NCBI GenBank assembly: GCA_001314625.1
Contig: LJSH01000006.1
Location: 62,001-126,000, forward strand
Source of the DNA: Oceanicaulis sp. HLUCCA04
Lineage (GTDB): Bacteria; Pseudomonadota; Alphaproteobacteria; Caulobacterales; Maricaulaceae
Direction: 5' to 3'
DNA length: 64,000 nt
The position numbers and the translations under genes are program-made. Positions 10,745 through 36,234 of the stretch are shown piece after piece (positions within the stretch are counted from its first letter, which is position 1; each line of letters starts with the position of its first letter). Below the pieces are notes generated by a model. It was not told the origin of the DNA, made no database searches, and was given only the letters and a program-made list of their open reading frames with translations.

Positions 10745-10830
10745 CCGTGCACGCAACACCCGCGCCCGGCATATCGCGTCTGGCACGATAAATGCGAGTC
10801 CCGGCACGACGTCTTTATGGAGGCATGTGC

Positions 10831-14520: not shown

Positions 14521-15891
14521 TCAAGCTTCACCGGTCTCTTCGCCACCTGACGGCGCAGCAAGCGAGCGCGGCGTTTCATCGACTTGTGCCGGGCCTTCGA
14601 GCGCCTTTGTGCCCGATGCAGAGTTGAGTTCGGCCATCTTGCGCGCCGAGACCAGAACCCGCCCCTCCAGCGAGGCTACCGCACTGTTGTAATTGGTGGT
14701 CGCAGACTTCAGACCGGAGCCGACACGGCCAAGATGGCCGGTAAATGTCTGCAGCCGGTCGTGGATCTCAGCGCCCAGCGCCGCGATCTGACGGGCATTC
14801 TCCTCCAGCGATTGCTGCCGCCAGCCATAAGCCACCGCTTTTGCCAGCGCCAGCAGGGTCGAGGGCGTCACGATGATGACATCCTGCGCGATGGCCTCGT
14901 CGAACAGACCGGGCTCCTCCTCCATCGCCGCAGAATAAAAGCTCTCGCCGGGGATGAAGAGCGCAACAAAATCAATCGCGCCCTCGACCGACTTTGCATA
15001 CTCCTTGCCCGCAAGCTGGCGGATATGGGTCTTCACCTGCATGGCATGGCGGCGCAGATGCTGCTTGCGGGTGGCCTCGTCGGGCGCCTCTACCGCATCA
15101 AGATAGGCCGTGAGCGCTACCTTGGAATCAATGACGAAGCGCCCGCCGCCGGGCAGGCGTACCACGAAGTCCGGCCGCAGAGCCGCGCCCTCGCTGTCGC
15201 GCGTCTGGTACTGGCTTTCATAATCGATCCCCTTGGTCAGGCCCGCCAGTTCCAGCACGTTTTCGACGGTGCGCTCACCCCACTGTCCGCGCGTGGTAGA
15301 CGAGCGCTGAAGCGCGTTGACGAGCTTTGATGTCTCCTGCTGCTGCCCGGCCAGGCCCTGCCGCAGCGCGTTTATTTGCTCTCCCAGCTCGCCGCGATGG
15401 GAGGCGCGCTCCTTTTCGATATTGTCGACCGTGGCCTTGAACTGGTCGAGCTTTTCGCGGATCGGCGTCACCAGCTCCTTTACACTGCCCTCGGCCTTTT
15501 CCTGATTGAGCTTGAAGGTCTCTGCCGCCCGCTCGAGAAACGCCTTCTGGGATTTGTCGAGCGCCTCATTGGCGAGAATCTGGAACTTCTCCTGCACGGC
15601 ATTGGAGAGCTGGGTCAGGCTTTCGCGCTCGCGCCTTACCGCTTCGGCTTCGGTATCGAGGCGGGCTTTCAGCGCAGCGGCGGCCTGTTCGGCTTCCCGG
15701 CGCGCCGCCCGCTCACCCTCCAGCTCGGCCTGCCGCTGTGCGCGCTCTGTTTCGTGGCGGCGCTCGGTGTCAGCGAGACGCTCCTGCAGAGCCGCGGCGC
15801 CTGCGCCGGCATTGCGCATGAACAGCCAGGCCAGGACCAGACCGGCCACGAGGCCACCGCCTGCCATCAGTACGATATTGAGCATTTCCAT
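14521..15891 (-). CDS. rmuC: DNA recombination protein RmuC
   Basis: A 456-residue protein. An N-terminal membrane segment ([18 protein letters not shown], about residues 7-24) leads into a long coiled coil (about 30-180, Glu/Arg/Ala rich). The RmuC nuclease-like domain (about 185-390) carries [36 protein letters not shown] and [19 protein letters not shown], all family hallmarks. RmuC limits recombination at inverted repeats and is thought to act as a nuclease. Length is normal. It heads a three-gene unit with def and the lipoprotein. rmuC next to def is frequent in alphaproteobacteria. Confidence 0.95.
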
Positions 15892-31880: not shown

Positions 31881-31899
31881 GTGGTAGCGGGAGAGAGAC
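31881..31899. repeat. Distal attachment site (att) of the element
   Basis: GTGGTAGCGGGAGAGAGAC, identical to 36157-36175, where it forms the 3' end of tRNA-Met. It is the tRNA-end fragment displaced by integration. Confidence 0.9.
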
Positions 31900-31980
31900 C
31901 AGTCATCCCCGATACCACGGCTCCTGTATCCCTATAACTTTCTGAGACTTAGAGATGTGCCCGCGAACGGCCCTCGATTT

Positions 31981-32005
31981 CTTGTGGGACAGTTTGTGGG
32001 GCAGT
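31981..32005. repeat. Left arm-type repeat of the element
   Basis: Two 12-bp units (GTGGGACAGTTT, then GTGGGGCAGTTT) begin at 31984. With the shared flanks they match 36082-36106 over 25 bases with one mismatch. A third weaker unit (GGGGCCTG) follows. It lies 82 bases inside the left att site, the right place for an integrase arm-binding site. Confidence 0.7.
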
Positions 32006-32160
32006 TTGGGGCCTGTGGCAACTCAGTGGTCGCAGGTAGGCCTAAGCTGGGCCGTGCTTCGCCCATCCCTGCGTCATGCCACGGGTCCCGCAATGGTGGG
32101 TGTAGGTTCTCTCCACAGACATCGGGCCGTCCAGCATACAAAAACGACAGGTAGGCACCC

Positions 32161-32823
32161 TCAGGCCGCCTCCAGCCTCGCCACCACCCGGCTGACGGTG
32201 TTGGGATGCCAGCGCCCTCCGCCCCGCGTCTGGACGCCAGCGGCGTTAAGGGCCTCAGCGATCTCCCGCAGGGTAGCCCCGCGCTCCTTGAGCGGCTTCA
32301 CGATCCCCTCGACGGTCTCCGCAAAGGCGTCCGCCTTGGCACGCTTGGCCGCGTTGATCTGTGCAATGTTGCCTCTGTCGCCCCCCAGCTTCACGCCACG
32401 GGCCTTGGCGGCGGCGAGGGCCTGTTTCGTGCGAAGGGAGATGAACTCGCGCTCTTGCTCTGCCAGCGCGGCGTAGATGTGCAGGGAGAACTTGTCAGCG
32501 TAGGGCATAGAGGCCACCCGGAGGTTCACCCGCTTATCGTCCATGATCGAGGCGATGAACGAGACCTTCCTACTCAGGCGGTCCAGCTTGGCCACTAGGA
32601 GCGTCGCCCCCCGGCTGCGCACTAGGTCCAGTGCGGCCTGTAGCTGAGGCCGGTCCGCCCCTTTGCCGGACAGGACGTCCGTGAACTCCCCTATGACCTC
32701 AAAGGGTGTCTCAGCGTAGGTCTCTAGGAACAGGGAGATGTCCCTGTCCTGTGCCTCCAGCCCCAGACCAGAGCGGCCCTGATCCTCTGTAGATACGCGG
32801 CGGTAGATGACGAACTGGAGCAT
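32161..32823 (-). CDS. Serine recombinase (resolvase/invertase family)
   Basis: A 220-residue site-specific recombinase. The catalytic Ser is in FVIYRRVSTEDQGRSGLGLE (about residue 11), and the conserved arginines are in LLVAKLDRLSRKVSF. The dimer helix holds YAALAEQEREFISLRTKQAL. The C-terminal HTH begins GATLREIAEALNAAGV and ends NTVSRVVARL, as in resolvases. ATG 32823 is chosen because GGGAGG lies 11 bases before it; the frame to 32868 adds 15 unrelated residues. It sits at the far end of the element from the tyrosine integrase. It may resolve dimers or control an inversion, but no target site is seen. Confidence 0.9.
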   Translation of the reverse strand: MLQFVIYRRVSTEDQGRSGLGLEAQDRDISLFLETYAETPFEVIGEFTDVLSGKGADRPQLQAALDLVRSRGATLLVAKLDRLSRKVSFIASIMDDKRVNLRVASMPYADKFSLHIYAALAEQEREFISLRTKQALAAAKARGVKLGGDRGNIAQINAAKRAKADAFAETVEGIVKPLKERGATLREIAEALNAAGVQTRGGGRWHPNTVSRVVARLEAA

Positions 32824-33030
32824 GGCCCCTGCCTCCCTCACGGTTGACTGTGAGAGGGCTTCTAGCATCGTTTGTTACGAATTGCAATGAAGGTTGTGAG
32901 TGTAACAATACGACTAGCTAGGCCGTCTGGGCACGGTCGACCCGACGTTAGGTCAATGTTTACAGTGGGTTGACTGTTTCCCCCGGCGCTATAGCCTCCT
33001 TCCCGTCGATCACTGACCGTGGGGAAGGCT

Positions 33031-33261
33031 ATGACACACACGCAAACCGACACCGCCCATCGTCTGGCAGAGGCCGGACAGGGCAACACAGCGGAGGCCG
33101 CCGCACTCGTAGCGGCCTTGGAGGCAGAGGCAGGCGCAATCGGCGCGGCGATGGAAATGCTGGAGGGTATCAAGGCAGGGGCAGAGGAGGCCCTAGCTTC
33201 CCTCGCTACGCGGCTCTTGCCCGTCGAGGCCGCCCTGATGGCGCTTGAGGATGTGGCCTAG
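33031..33261 (+). CDS. Small Ala/Glu-rich unknown protein of the element
   Basis: A 76-residue acidic, alanine-rich, fully helical protein (EAAALVAALEAEAGAIGAAM, then AGAEEALASLATRLLPVEAA). GGGGAAGG stands just before the ATG at 33031, a good ribosome site. It is the only plus-strand gene in the element. No family is recognised; the heptad pattern suggests a coiled coil. It could be a small regulator or a partner of the ParB-like protein, but nothing shows this. Confidence 0.6.
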   Translation: MTHTQTDTAHRLAEAGQGNTAEAAALVAALEAEAGAIGAAMEMLEGIKAGAEEALASLATRLLPVEAALMALEDVA

Positions 33262-33449
33262 GGGTGTCCGCCCCGAGACGTTCTGAGAGGCCCTCTAGGA
33301 GGCACCGGGGGGTATCGCGACCGTCCCTGTCTCTCAGAGAGCCTCGCAGATTTTTCTGCCATGAATGGACCCCTTCCCGCGTTGCTTCGTGTTGGGGTCC
33401 GCTCGCGTCTCTGCCTACCTGCGCTGGCCTTCCGGGCTATGCCGTTGAC

Positions 33450-34301
33450 CTACAGTGTCCGATCCGGACAGTTTTTGACCTCCAGCCCTTTCCAGCAAGG
33501 CGGAGAGGTTGTCTCTCCGAAGCCATATCCGTCTGTCTCCGGTATCGCACGGGGCTTCTTGCCCGTCAGCTTCCAGTAGGCCTCCTCGGCCGCCGCGATG
33601 GCGTGGCCCTTCGTCTCCTCGGTTCCGCCTAGAGCGATGAGCTGGTCTCGCAGCTTCGCGGCCAGACGCTCCGCCTTGACCTCTTTCCAGTCCCGAAGTC
33701 CGCCGTTCCCTTCGTAGACATCATCGTTCCCCGCCATGGCGGCGGCGATGGAGGGGAAGTCCTGATGCATCCAATCGTGAAGTGTGGAGCGCTTGGCACC
33801 CGGCAGGTCAGCTTCAATTTCCCGGTAGCTCTTGAAGTTCCCCCGGCGCTTCTCTCCTTTGCGGTGCTGGTTTGCCTGCACATATCGCCGGAAGGCTTCA
33901 CGCCGTTCTGCCTTCGTCAGGTTCTTGTGTGCCGTCCAGTTGGCCCGGCTGGCCCACCATCGAGCGGTCACGGCATCGGGGGCCTCTCCCATCGAGATGA
34001 CGGGGAAACGTTCGCGCTCAAGAGCTTTTGGGTCTGTGGCCTGCGCGAAGGCCTCATAGCGGTGCAGCCCGTCGATCAGTGTCCATCGCCCGTTGAGCAA
34101 AGCCACCTTTGCAGGCTCCACATGGCCGCCGCTCTTGAATGCCTGGGCTATCACCTTCACCAGTCCCGGCTCTGTCTTGCCCTTCGCTCGGCAGGTGATC
34201 TCCGGGTCAACGTGAAGCCACTCTAGAGGCAGGTAGGACGGCTCGCCCGGTTTCAACTCGGGGGGCGACGGCGGCGGGGTGGAAATATCGTGTTCGTTCA
34301 T
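33450..34301 (-). CDS. ParB N-terminal domain protein
   Basis: A 283-residue protein with a ParB/Spo0J-type N-terminal domain (about residues 22-110). The core motif reads LLNGRWTLIDGLHRYEAFAQA, where the DGxHRxxA form is typical of mobile-element ParB-like proteins rather than chromosomal ParB (GERR). A helical region (about 125-200) with SYREIEADLPGAKRSTLHDW looks like a helix-turn-helix. Partner ParA is absent from the element, so classical partition is unlikely; regulation or element maintenance is more probable. The start is ATG; the 398 bases before it hold a hairpin. Confidence 0.82.
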   Translation of the reverse strand: MNEHDISTPPPSPPELKPGEPSYLPLEWLHVDPEITCRAKGKTEPGLVKVIAQAFKSGGHVEPAKVALLNGRWTLIDGLHRYEAFAQATDPKALERERFPVISMGEAPDAVTARWWASRANWTAHKNLTKAERREAFRRYVQANQHRKGEKRRGNFKSYREIEADLPGAKRSTLHDWMHQDFPSIAAAMAGNDDVYEGNGGLRDWKEVKAERLAAKLRDQLIALGGTEETKGHAIAAAEEAYWKLTGKKPRAIPETDGYGFGETTSPPCWKGLEVKNCPDRTL

Positions 34302-34699
34302 CTCGCATACTCGCGTTCGTGGGGGTTGTTGATCCCCTCCGTGGTGATGCCTCCATAACGACGAAAGCCCCCACTGGGCTTGCCAGTGAGGGCCTCGCTC
34401 TGTCGCGCCCCGTCAGGCGCTGGATACCCCACGAAGGGTAGCTATCCGGCTCGCGCTCATGCGCGCTCGTGCCGGTCTGGGGAGGAGAACTCTCCTCATT
34501 GACGCTACCTTTTGGGTTTTCGTCCTTCGCCGCCCGGTCACAACAGACCTCTGGGTTGTCGACGGCGGCGGGGATGCCGTCCAGCGTCAAGCGGACAAGA
34601 GGGCGCTCGGTAGGCCCCTAGAAGGCCCTAGGAGCACCTTCACGATACGCGCTTGCAATCCACAGCCCAGCCCGTTCTCAGCGGGCCTCTGCGGCGTTT
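34302..34699. other. 398-bp region without a convincing gene, in the element
   Basis: It lies between the integrase stop and the ParB-like start. A 127-residue minus-strand frame (34207-34590) overlaps the ParB gene and has no recognisable domain. A strong hairpin is at 34367-34393. The region may hold the promoter and leader of the ParB-like gene, a small RNA or an origin-like site. Confidence 0.5.
34367..34393 (-). terminator. Hairpin with short T-run upstream of the ParB-like gene
   Basis: On the minus strand GCCCTCACTGG pairs with CCAGTGGGGGC (11 bp, one G-U), loop of about five bases, followed by TTTCGTCGTT. It fits a weak terminator or attenuator 66 bases before the ParB-like ATG, or the end of a small RNA. 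Confidence 0.5.
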
Positions 34700-36049
34700 C
34701 TAGGGGGCGTCCTGAACGCTCTGGGTTCGCCGGGCGATGGCTTCCCTCTCCGCCTTCAATCTCGCGTCCCAGTCCAGCGAGTTGATGATGTCCCGGAGGC
34801 TCTCCACCGCCGTCTTGTTCCCGTAGACCCCATAGGTCATGCCAGTGTGCTTGTGGCCGGTAATTCGGGCCGCTGTGGCCTCCTGCACACCTAGCTCATG
34901 CAGGCGAGAAGCGAGAGTGTGCCGGAAGCTGTGGAGCACCTTGCTCCGGCCCTCGAAGCCAAGCCCCCGTTTCAGCTCTGAGAACCTGTTGGTGACGCTC
35001 TGGGTGCTCCACGGGTCCGCCACCCAAGCCTTGACGTCATCTCGGATTGCATCGGGACAGGGCAGTGCGCGTTCCCCTGCGTCCGTCTTGGTGGTCTCCC
35101 GGCGAATAACAAGCCAGTCATTCTCCGGGTCATACTCCATCCCGGCGATCTCCTTTGCCCGCGCGCCGGTGTGCAGGGCAATTCGGATCAGGCGTGGCAT
35201 TCTGGCTCCCGCCTTGCCCCGTAGTGCCGTCGCCGCGTCGAGGAGGAGAATGGTCTCTTGCAGCGTCCAGATGTTACGCTTTACGGGTGCTTTGGCGGGT
35301 TCGAAGTCGATACCCTTCCAGATGGCCTTATCCAGCCCTATGTGGCCCCACAGGCGCGAGAGGGCGGAGAGGTGGTTGTTCACTGTCTTGCGTGAGAAAC
35401 CAGAGCCGTCCGCTCCCCCCTCCTCTGCAAGCCATTGCGCGAACATGCGGGCATCCGTCCGGGTAACCTGAGCTGACCGGGGAAGGCGTTCCTGAGCCGT
35501 CTTGAAGAACCGGCGATACTCACGCTTCGTGCCCTCTGTGAGGTCCACCTTGGCCAGCCAGCGCTCCCCCGCTAGCGAGATCGGGATGTTGCCCCTCAAC
35601 GCCTCCATCTGGTCGCGAAGGCGTGCGCCCTCTCTGGTCTCCGCTGTGAAGCGCTCTAGCAGCTCTTCCGGGTCCATCCCCGCGCCGAAGCGGTCAACGT
35701 GTCTCTTATGCCGCCCCCATTCCTGCGCCTTGGTGCTGAGTTCCTCTGAGAGCCGCTCCACCACCGAAGGGGCCGCTGGGTCCAGTTCTCCTCGGCTTGC
35801 CGCCCGGCGCTCTAGCTCCCCCTCAGCGAGGGCACTCTCTAGTGCGCTAGGGTCACCGACGCGGCGGATCAACTCCCATTCCCGCTCCAGCGTGGCCATA
35901 CGAACGTCTCGCCGCCTGCGCGCCTCTCTGACGTCGCGCGTGCGTAGGCTCTCCTCGATCCACTCCCGGCCCACCTCCTCGCGAACGTCGAGGGGCACCC
36001 TCTTGCGGAGATACCAGACCTTCCCTCGCTGTCTCATGTCATGGTTCAT
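34700..36049 (-). CDS. Tyrosine-type site-specific integrase
   Basis: A 449-residue phage-type integrase. The N-terminal arm-binding part begins MRQRGKVWYLRKRVPLDVRE, a core-binding SAM-like domain covers about residues 150-240, and the catalytic domain covers about 255-430. Catalytic residues: Arg in LHTGARAKEIAGME, His-x-x-Arg in LHSFRHTLASRLHELG, His in GHKHTGMTYG and Tyr in YGVYGNK. All are present, so it should be active. The gene reads away from the tRNA, with its start 109 bases from the att site. The start could also be GTG 36073. It catalyses insertion and excision at tRNA-Met. Confidence 0.93.
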   Translation of the reverse strand: MNHDMRQRGKVWYLRKRVPLDVREEVGREWIEESLRTRDVREARRRRDVRMATLEREWELIRRVGDPSALESALAEGELERRAASRGELDPAAPSVVERLSEELSTKAQEWGRHKRHVDRFGAGMDPEELLERFTAETREGARLRDQMEALRGNIPISLAGERWLAKVDLTEGTKREYRRFFKTAQERLPRSAQVTRTDARMFAQWLAEEGGADGSGFSRKTVNNHLSALSRLWGHIGLDKAIWKGIDFEPAKAPVKRNIWTLQETILLLDAATALRGKAGARMPRLIRIALHTGARAKEIAGMEYDPENDWLVIRRETTKTDAGERALPCPDAIRDDVKAWVADPWSTQSVTNRFSELKRGLGFEGRSKVLHSFRHTLASRLHELGVQEATAARITGHKHTGMTYGVYGNKTAVESLRDIINSLDWDARLKAEREAIARRTQSVQDAP

Positions 36050-36081
36050 TACGCGATACCTCGGCACCCTCACTCCTCGCC

Positions 36082-36106
36082 CTTGTGGGACAGTTTGTGG
36101 GACAGT
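36082..36106. repeat. Right arm-type repeat of the element
   Basis: Two 12-bp units (GTGGGACAGTTT, GTGGGACAGTCC) from 36085, matching 31981-32005 over 25 bases with one mismatch. It lies between the integrase start and the att site, 51 bases from the latter. It may be an integrase arm site and could also lie in the integrase promoter. Confidence 0.7.
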
Positions 36107-36156
36107 CCGAGGGCGAAAAACGCTAAACTCTCAGTGATATAGGGCCTTAGATGAAG

Positions 36157-36175
36157 GTGGTAGCGGGAGAGAGAC
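36157..36175. repeat. Proximal attachment site in the tRNA-Met 3' end
   Basis: GTGGTAGCGGGAGAGAGAC, identical to 31881-31899. Bases 36158-36175 are the last 18 nt of the tRNA including CCA, so insertion leaves the tRNA whole. Confidence 0.9.
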
Positions 36176-36234
36176 TTGAACTCTCGACCTCAGGATTATG
36201 AGTCCTGCGCTCTAACCAGCTGAGCTATCCCGCC
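36158..36234 (-). tRNA. tRNA-Met (CAT), elongator type
   Basis: A 77-nt cloverleaf. Acceptor GGCGGGA pairs with TCCCGCT (first pair G-U), D arm GCTC/GAGC, anticodon stem CAGGA/TCCTG around loop CTCATAA (anticodon CAT), T arm GAGAG/CTCTC with loop TTCAAGT, then ACCA encoded. Lack of three G-C pairs at the anticodon stem base and a paired position 1 argue for the elongator rather than the initiator. tRNA-Ile2 (lysidine-modified CAT) is a less likely alternative. Its 3' end is the integration site of the element. Confidence 0.93.

Follow-up and report, generated by a model that had tools for sequence, protein, structure and literature searches.

A compact island in the tRNA-Met 3' end of Glycocaulis species, probably a cargo-free version of a modular integrative family

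Introduction

Tiny genomic islands without transfer genes are common, and how they move is a known puzzle; in the available text of one study such elements are treated as hitchhikers that need helpers (PMC11389934). Here we ask what kind of unit sits at one such locus and what its few genes may do. We have analyzed 64,000 nucleotides (hereafter the window) of contig LJSH01000006.1, positions 62,001 to 126,000, from Oceanicaulis sp. HLUCCA04 (assembly GCA_001314625.1), handled here as one of six Glycocaulis genomes (the window copy, G000, plus G001 to G005). A preliminary description had marked in it, between 31881 and 36175, a small satellite-like element or its reduced remnant, inserted in a tRNA-Met gene, with two recombinases and no recognisable cargo, and mobilised by a helper. 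Our analysis indicates that this is, on balance probably, a compact integrase-driven integrative mini-island in the tRNA-Met 3' end of Glycocaulis species, and the cargo-free version of a modular family. Judged by comparison of sequences, the element is real, mobile in evolution, modular and small.

Borders and target of the element

A perfect 19-bp direct repeat lies at 31881-31899 and 36157-36175, as had been described. We count the shared core as 18 bp (TGGTAGCGGGAGAGAGAC), because the preceding base differs among relatives. ARAGORN placed a tRNA-Met(CAT) on the minus strand (Table 1), so that the right core is the 3' end of this gene, including the CCA, in agreement with the preliminary description; an Rfam scan recovered the tRNA as well, plus an antisense match under the Rfam cut-off. 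The unit between the core copies measures 4,276 bp and lies inside the tRNA-Met locus. Allowing up to one mismatch, the core occurs twice in the 2.76 Mb host genome, and both copies border the element. The locus is a tRNA-integrated genomic island, with an integrase beside the tRNA and the tRNA 3' end repeated at the far end.

We have considered a chance repeat within ordinary chromosome, with which the GC content would agree (0.631 in the element, 0.634 in the window). The repeat exceeds the longest one found in all 300 Markov-1 simulations (17 bp), falls on the 3' end of a tRNA gene next to an integrase and delimits related units in four genomes. The comparative data refute this explanation, whose probability we regard as negligible.

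Between 31700 and 36400 there are only two exact direct repeats of at least 18 bp, the 19-bp attachment (att) repeat and a 20-bp arm-like repeat at 31981 and 36082. The arm-like repeats, absent from the preliminary description, are paired 9-mers (TGTGGGRCA) with a 12-bp period inside both ends of the element, the left pair 83 bp inward of the left core and the right pair ending 53 bp short of the right core. The left ones occupy the same place in all four Glycocaulis elements found at this tRNA; the pairs are present at both ends in all four, and also around an element of G. profundi. They match integrase arm sites in placement and pairing, and may well serve as such. The integrase beside the tRNA is complete, as claimed before, with DUF6538 (3e-15) and Phage_integrase (3.7e-11) domains in Pfam, and carries the R, K, HxxR, H and Y motifs; we presume the catalytic role of these motifs, as we do for the motifs of both recombinases of the element. 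At the level of sequence the unit is defined by its integrase and arm repeats together with the core sites and the end of the tRNA.

Related elements at the same tRNA

The preliminary description had suggested looking for empty sites at tRNA-Met in sister genomes. An element with integrase and serine recombinase occupies this tRNA in four of the six Glycocaulis genomes, and the four vary in size, cargo and gene sequence, the core-to-core distances being 4,276 bp in the window, 5,790 in G001, 6,695 in G002 and 4,190 in G004. When G001 and G002 (G. albus) are compared the left flanks are unlike, and the homology of the elements begins exactly at the core. Cargo differs in the slot that runs from the left end to the serine recombinase. 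G001 has there a 606-aa OLD/GajA-like gene (PADLOC Old, 3.2e-65) and G002 a gene of 235 aa. G002 also carries an RNase HI gene and a 335-aa gene; neither the 235-aa nor the 335-aa protein had PADLOC or Pfam hits. No gene was recognised in the slot of the window and G004 copies, which have the same reduced gene set.

In the two other genomes the situation is different. G. profundi (G005) has a large serine recombinase of 571 aa directly beside the tRNA-Met 3' end (L031:8886-10601), and so unrelated integrases may share this tRNA as a hotspot. We saw no element related to the window one at the tRNA-Met of G. profundi, whose own element with integrase and parB sits elsewhere. The G003 assembly has two contigs that both stop precisely at the 18-bp core, one (C28, L180) after a gene that by eye resembles an acyl-CoA dehydrogenase and the other (C13, L030) at the tRNA, which is what an assembly fork leaves. 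No relatives of the integrase, serine recombinase or ParB-like protein were found in G003, and its small contigs C29 and C30 showed nothing element-like by eye. The left-flank genes traced in G003 and G005 revealed rearranged flanks. Thus the sister genomes supply occupied sites that differ and one tRNA at which no related element was seen, but not a clean allelic empty site. The refuting condition named in the preliminary description, all close relatives with the region in place and none with an empty site, does not apply cleanly. Among five outgroup tRNA-Met loci inspected by eye (open reading frames, ORFs, of at least 100 aa within 5 kb), four (L034, L035, L037 and L038) had no integrase on the 3' side, and L036 had a serine recombinase with restriction-like genes.

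We have compared the synonymous divergence (dS) of the element with that of the host. Between the window and G004 it was 0.088 for parB, 0.18 for the small ORF, 0.26 for the integrase and 0.40 for the serine recombinase, versus 1.04 for the flanking chemoreceptor (MCP) gene. As the element genes fall below the flank, the element reached the window lineage, G004 or both after the species split, that is, it was acquired horizontally relative to the host genes. Against G001 the values were 0.41 for the serine recombinase, 1.30 for the integrase, 1.29 for the small ORF and 1.07 for the flank. The serine recombinase gave about 0.40 against each of G001, G002 and G004, and the integrase 1.30 against G001 and 1.33 against G002, so the modules have separate histories. 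The alignments thus show a unit that has moved between species after they split, with cargo and modules that vary among copies.

A different explanation is that the window copy is the degraded remnant of a larger island or satellite, shorn of cargo and rnhA, immobile and fixed in the tRNA. Cargo and rnhA are both missing from it (the best match to an rnhA remnant in the window had E 0.14), and its parB frame lacks the stop codon of G004 and runs on for 22 residues. G004 has the identical reduced gene set, which also counts for this explanation. Since this version recurs in G004 with low dS, the element probably moved in the reduced form. Besides, the catalytic motifs of both recombinases, the arms and the cores are intact, and dN/dS is below 0.5 for all four ORFs (0.13-0.45 between the window and G004). 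We hold decay to be unlikely. Of the proposal that the element is satellite-like or reduced, the compact, integrase-bounded and horizontally acquired part stands; "reduced remnant" fits only in that cargo and rnhA are missing.

One locus of G. profundi, read by eye, comes closest to evidence for an excised form. The element there, on contig 351, carries arm repeats at its two ends, and a 43-bp copy (98%) of its own right end stands to the left of its left core. The resulting order of right end, core and left end (L032:7728-7800) is that of a circle or a tandem copy, and would hint at such a form. Seventeen bases of this left core equal the 3' end of the host tRNA-Met, although a tRNA search of the 19.9 kb surrounding the element was negative.

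Gene content

The features of the window copy are collected in Table 1. The small gene announced earlier is present, and has homologues in G001 and G004 (dN/dS 0.23 against the latter). We also confirm the absence of recognisable cargo: scans of five element ORFs with Pfam (four of them also with PHROG, and the small ORF with PADLOC) revealed neither ParA nor any cargo gene, relaxase, replication initiator, AlpA or virion gene. As for an integrative plasmid, domain scans of the element ORFs gave no Rep, and the RNase HI found in relatives is not a replication initiator.

Table 1. Features of the element in the window (positions in the window)
Feature	Position	Strand	Basis
attL core, 18 bp, equal to the tRNA-Met 3' end	31882..31899		repeat search; G001/G002 homology begins here despite differing flanks
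Inverted half-site CCCCGATACCA after the attL core, possible core-type integrase site	to about 31918		sequence
Left arm-type-like direct repeats, 2x TGTGGGRCA, 12-bp period	31981..32005	+	repeat search
Cargo slot, left end to serine recombinase, no gene recognised	32006..32160		comparison with G001, G002
Small serine recombinase, 220 aa from likely start 32823 (longest ORF to 32868, 235 aa)	32161..32823	-	ORF, Pfam, PHROG
Smaller dyad (18 bp, CTCAC..GTGAG) ahead of the serine recombinase gene, candidate accessory site	32837..32854		sequence comparison
37-bp dyad TTGTTAC..GTAACAA, candidate crossover site; edges the block common to five elements	32872..32908		sequence comparison
Small ORF, 80 aa from GTG 33019 or 76 aa from ATG 33031	33019..33261	+	ORF; homologues in G001, G004
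Protein of predicted ParB/Noc/KorB fold, without ParA	33450..34301	-	fold, weak HMM; final 22 aa beyond the G004 stop (region 33450-33520)
Stretch upstream of parB, no gene recognised; rnhA position in G002/G005	34302..34699		84-91% identical to G004
DUF6538 tyrosine integrase, 457 aa	34700..36073	-	Pfam; catalytic motifs
Right arm-type-like direct repeats, 2x TGTGGGACA	36082..36106	+	repeat search
tRNA-Met(CAT), target gene, whose 3' end is the attR core (36158-36175)	36158..36234	-	ARAGORN

A ParB-domain protein without ParA had been proposed. The absence of a recognised ParA agrees with this, and the assignment by hidden Markov model (HMM) is weak (phrog_1033, 2.8e-4; no Pfam match above cut-off). 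A profile built from 11 ParB relatives matched Noc, sulfiredoxin and ParB chains (best 1.1e-5). A predicted model (pLDDT, the predicted local distance difference test, of 76) has the Noc/ParB/KorB fold over about 200 residues, with 7nfu_A as best Foldseek match (E 2.3e-6; TM-score 0.42 by query length, root-mean-square deviation 10.2), and supports a ParB fold. GxxRxxA is invariant in 11 of 11 aligned relatives and ENxxR is altered, both of which we take to be ParB motifs, picked out by eye in the alignment.

The serine recombinase and its upstream dyads

The serine recombinase at the far end, described before, is of the small type and has a Pfam Resolvase domain (3.9e-26), which covers resolvases and invertases alike. 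A GGGAGG stretch precedes the likely ATG start at 32823. Both upstream dyads are kept, imperfectly in some, in the five regions aligned (window, G001, G002, G004 and G560, the last from another genus), and both arms of the large dyad are altered in concert in G004. No second copy of the 37-bp dyad exists in the element in either orientation, the next best having 19-20 mismatches of 37. With a single copy per element, pairing of sites would need a dimer, and the dyads look like a res site that would pair in a dimer only.

Several results weigh against a resolvase. The arms of the large dyad are imperfect in G002. The best PHROG for the protein is "DNA invertase" (4e-37), the best PDB chains are DNA invertases (9e-12, versus 4e-6 for gamma-delta resolvase), and the best NCBIfam model is an invertase, far under its cut-off; with invertases as the nearest named sequences, the resolvase reading is weakened. 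The enzyme could instead exchange parts between elements at the 37-bp dyad, or invert a segment, and besides these PHROG and PDB names the pattern of homology speaks for it. The gene behaves as a cassette: in all five copies the homology stops at the stop codon, and it also ends at the outer edge of the large dyad, beyond which G001, G002 and G560 are unrelated to the window and G004 and to one another, while these two are still alike. The low dS of this gene next to that of the integrase, against G001 and G002, points the same way. However, homologous recombination in a conserved gene yields the same mosaic, so that the two kinds of exchange, site-specific and homologous, are not distinguished by it; with one crossover at the dyad the cargo end would be swapped too; and as the element has no second dyad copy there is no visible substrate for an inversion. 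We regard an exchange or inversion enzyme as doubtful, if somewhat less so than decay, and retain the multimer-resolving role as the more probable one within the mini-island.

Searching viral contigs with the serine recombinase returned six relatives, the best at 57% (L088), without such a dyad upstream by eye. Wider relatives of 42-57% identity were found at eight loci (8.8-17 kb each). Only one of these, L199 of genome G009, has a gene like the window integrase, and L205 has a weak integrase match at its end. At L199:5095-10490, in another genus, about 5.4 kb are bounded by a serine recombinase (57%) and a DUF6538 integrase (34%), with no ParB match and no tRNA nearby.

A wider family beyond this tRNA

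We searched for the same gene set elsewhere, as had been recommended, and it recurs at other tRNAs. The family as we count it has 12 ParB-like members: eight loci found by alignment (including G. profundi G005, G. albus G002 and Woodsholea G015), G004, the window, G560 and a Roseomonas plasmid. A small serine recombinase accompanies 11 of the 12 (4.1 kb away in L101) and is found as well in the G001 element, which has no parB. Therefore the two recombinases, singled out earlier as unusual in so small an element, are no oddity here. RNase HI is encoded within 0.5 kb of parB in half of the members (G002, G005 and L097-L100), with a 4-bp overlap in five of these six, and the two such proteins scanned were both above the NCBIfam cut-off. 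In G560 (L159:8230-11949) a parB (68%) and a serine recombinase cassette (93% at the amino acid level) stand beside a large serine integrase of 562 aa instead of a tyrosine integrase, and the Roseomonas plasmid has recombinase and ParB relative without integrase.

At four tRNA-borne loci we looked for a distant repeat of the tRNA tail, and three had one. The Xanthobacter aminoxidans locus (L098) runs from tRNA-Glu through the DUF6538 integrase, rnhA, parB, serine recombinase and cargo to att, with a 17-bp repeat at 10752, 6.8 kb off; one of two cargo proteins scanned is RmrA-like (2.2e-66). In Micavibrio (L101) a 21-bp repeat at tRNA-Ala has its far copy at 785, 9.2 kb apart. In G102 (L161) an 18-bp repeat at tRNA-Leu has its far copy at 15877, 13.8 kb apart, and there is a type IIG restriction gene; this locus stands outside the 12 members, its ParB match being weak (30% over 88 aa).

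PADLOC applied to 20 proteins gave ten matches at or below 1e-10, one weak match (L101) and nothing for nine, among them the window small ORF. Among copies with known ends, strong defence matches occur in G001, L098 and L161, a weak one in L101 and none in G002 and G005. Near the ParB relative of Woodsholea maritima (L033:3488-6717) there are SIR2-type and short Argonaute genes (PADLOC Aga_SIR2, pAgo_I); the locus also has an integrase that by eye is of another type and an HTH_17 gene.

Profile searches added little. Class-wide, 55 of 385 genomes matched the ParB profile at E 1e-6, partially except for the window (best 4e-13), most likely through generic ParB-N-like domains, and were not counted. 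In the family search 17 of 137 passed, six of them with near full-length matches. G559 was dropped, having a partial match on a 5.6-kb contig without integrase or recombinase match, and so were the other ten weak matches, among which only G102 was looked at. At weak-match loci, ParB and serine recombinase matches were present in L161 (G102) and L163 (G523); L164 (G316) lies at tRNA-Phe and matched the serine recombinase and, partially, the integrase, but not ParB, and L162 (G155) matched none of the three. No ParB relatives were found in the searched viral contigs and phage records.

How the island may move

For the function of the backbone and the vehicle we infer the following course. The integrase would bind the paired arm sites and the core sites, excise the island as a circle and reinsert it at the tRNA end. 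The serine recombinase might act at the dyads just upstream of its gene, resolving multimers of a replicated or concatenated form as plasmid resolvases do, and the ParB-fold protein that lacks a ParA, joined by RNase HI in the copies that have it, could serve maintenance or control of the free form. Relatives fill the slot left of the serine recombinase with cargo; in the window copy it is empty. To pass from cell to cell the island might hitchhike on a helper particle or be taken up as plain DNA, a proposal made because no transfer or virion gene was recognised. For the same reason a helper, as suggested in the preliminary description, is the natural assumption; none was found, though no survey of prophages was made.

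Several observations weigh against this account. We found no empty allelic site next to the same left flank. The five element ORFs scanned contain no excisionase of the AlpA/HTH_17 type. ParB and the serine recombinase do not always go together: parB is missing from the G001 element, which has the small serine recombinase; none of the eight wider recombinase loci has a ParB match nearby; and in Woodsholea (G015) there is no small serine recombinase near parB. At tRNA-Thr (L099) no far copy of the tRNA tail was found in 14.6 kb, and the exact arm 9-mer is absent from L098, L099, L101, L159, L161 and L199. Defence genes of L097, L099, L100 and Woodsholea may lie outside the elements.

The size, the absent virion genes and the tRNA site recall phage satellites, and two ParB relatives (L100 and L101) lie near genes judged phage-like by eye. 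Nevertheless, we find a true satellite, provided with a packaging signal of its own for a helper phage, quite improbable. In the window copy we recognised no gene for capsid remodelling, terminase, primase or AlpA, and no ParB relative turned up in the viral contigs and phage records searched.

Gene transfer agents might be another vehicle. Their marker gene (PF13547) is present in all six Glycocaulis genomes, and in 18 of the 21 genomes searched overall. Related gene transfer agent particles hold about 4 to 8 kb. By size the Glycocaulis elements could fit such particles, an idea only. Going further, these could be minimal integrative replicons, in which the ParA-less ParB, in some coupled translationally to RNase HI, and the serine recombinase keep the excised circle, integrases of the tyrosine and large serine kinds can replace each other and the Glycocaulis forms, at 4-7 kb, are small enough to travel whole in the gene transfer agent particles of their hosts; we rate this proposal as a long shot. 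The mini-island itself is convenient material for such questions. The Glycocaulis set is small enough for gene-by-gene deletion in hosts that carry the marker gene, and the cargo slot is seen empty and full at one tRNA. The system could address the least that an island needs to move, the role of a ParB without ParA and the swapping of anti-phage genes.

Comparison with known systems

We found no paper on Glycocaulis genomic islands, and no description of an island family with ParB, RNase HI, serine recombinase and integrase in a literature search mostly of papers outside subscription. The catalytic domain is shared with the small serine recombinases (DNA invertases; Tn3, gamma-delta and Sin resolvases), and the upstream dyads resemble res sites; in sequence the window protein is nearer invertases than resolvases, yet no inverted pair of sites is seen. 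The second backbone protein is like the ParB/Noc/KorB CTPase-fold proteins in predicted fold and in GxxRxxA, and differs from them in having no ParA partner in the element and in the altered ENxxR. A similar pair is carried by Roseomonas marmotae p1318-9 (NZ_CP061100), which is listed as a plasmid of 3,454 bp with three annotated genes, none an integrase; its ParB is about 25% identical, and the recombinase it carries resembles more closely the subtype of G. profundi (57%).

Among minimal islands, PICMI are defined, in the available text of PMC10803314, by integrase, AlpA, primase and insertion at the fis site. The window element shares with them, as far as that text goes, a minimal gene content, a similar size (eight PICMI copies take about 49 kb), the integrase and defence genes in some copies. 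It has only the first of the four defining features, being inserted in tRNA-Met rather than fis and without recognised AlpA or primase, and carries a serine recombinase and a ParB-like protein in addition.

The I55-type islands of Pseudomonas reportedly are larger than the Glycocaulis elements (4.2-6.7 kb), which belong to another host lineage, have no cargo in the window copy and rely on a backbone of ParB-fold protein, serine recombinase and RNase HI, with no helper found. According to the accessible part of PMC12595487, those islands also insert in tRNA or tmRNA 3' ends between direct repeats with a tyrosine integrase, carry defence genes (here in some relatives) and have no recognised autonomous transfer genes; one tmRNA island with defence genes is carried by a jumbo phage. 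The window element belongs to this broad class of tRNA islands and, by analogy, would work in outline like I55- and PICMI-type elements, with a backbone that is unusual.

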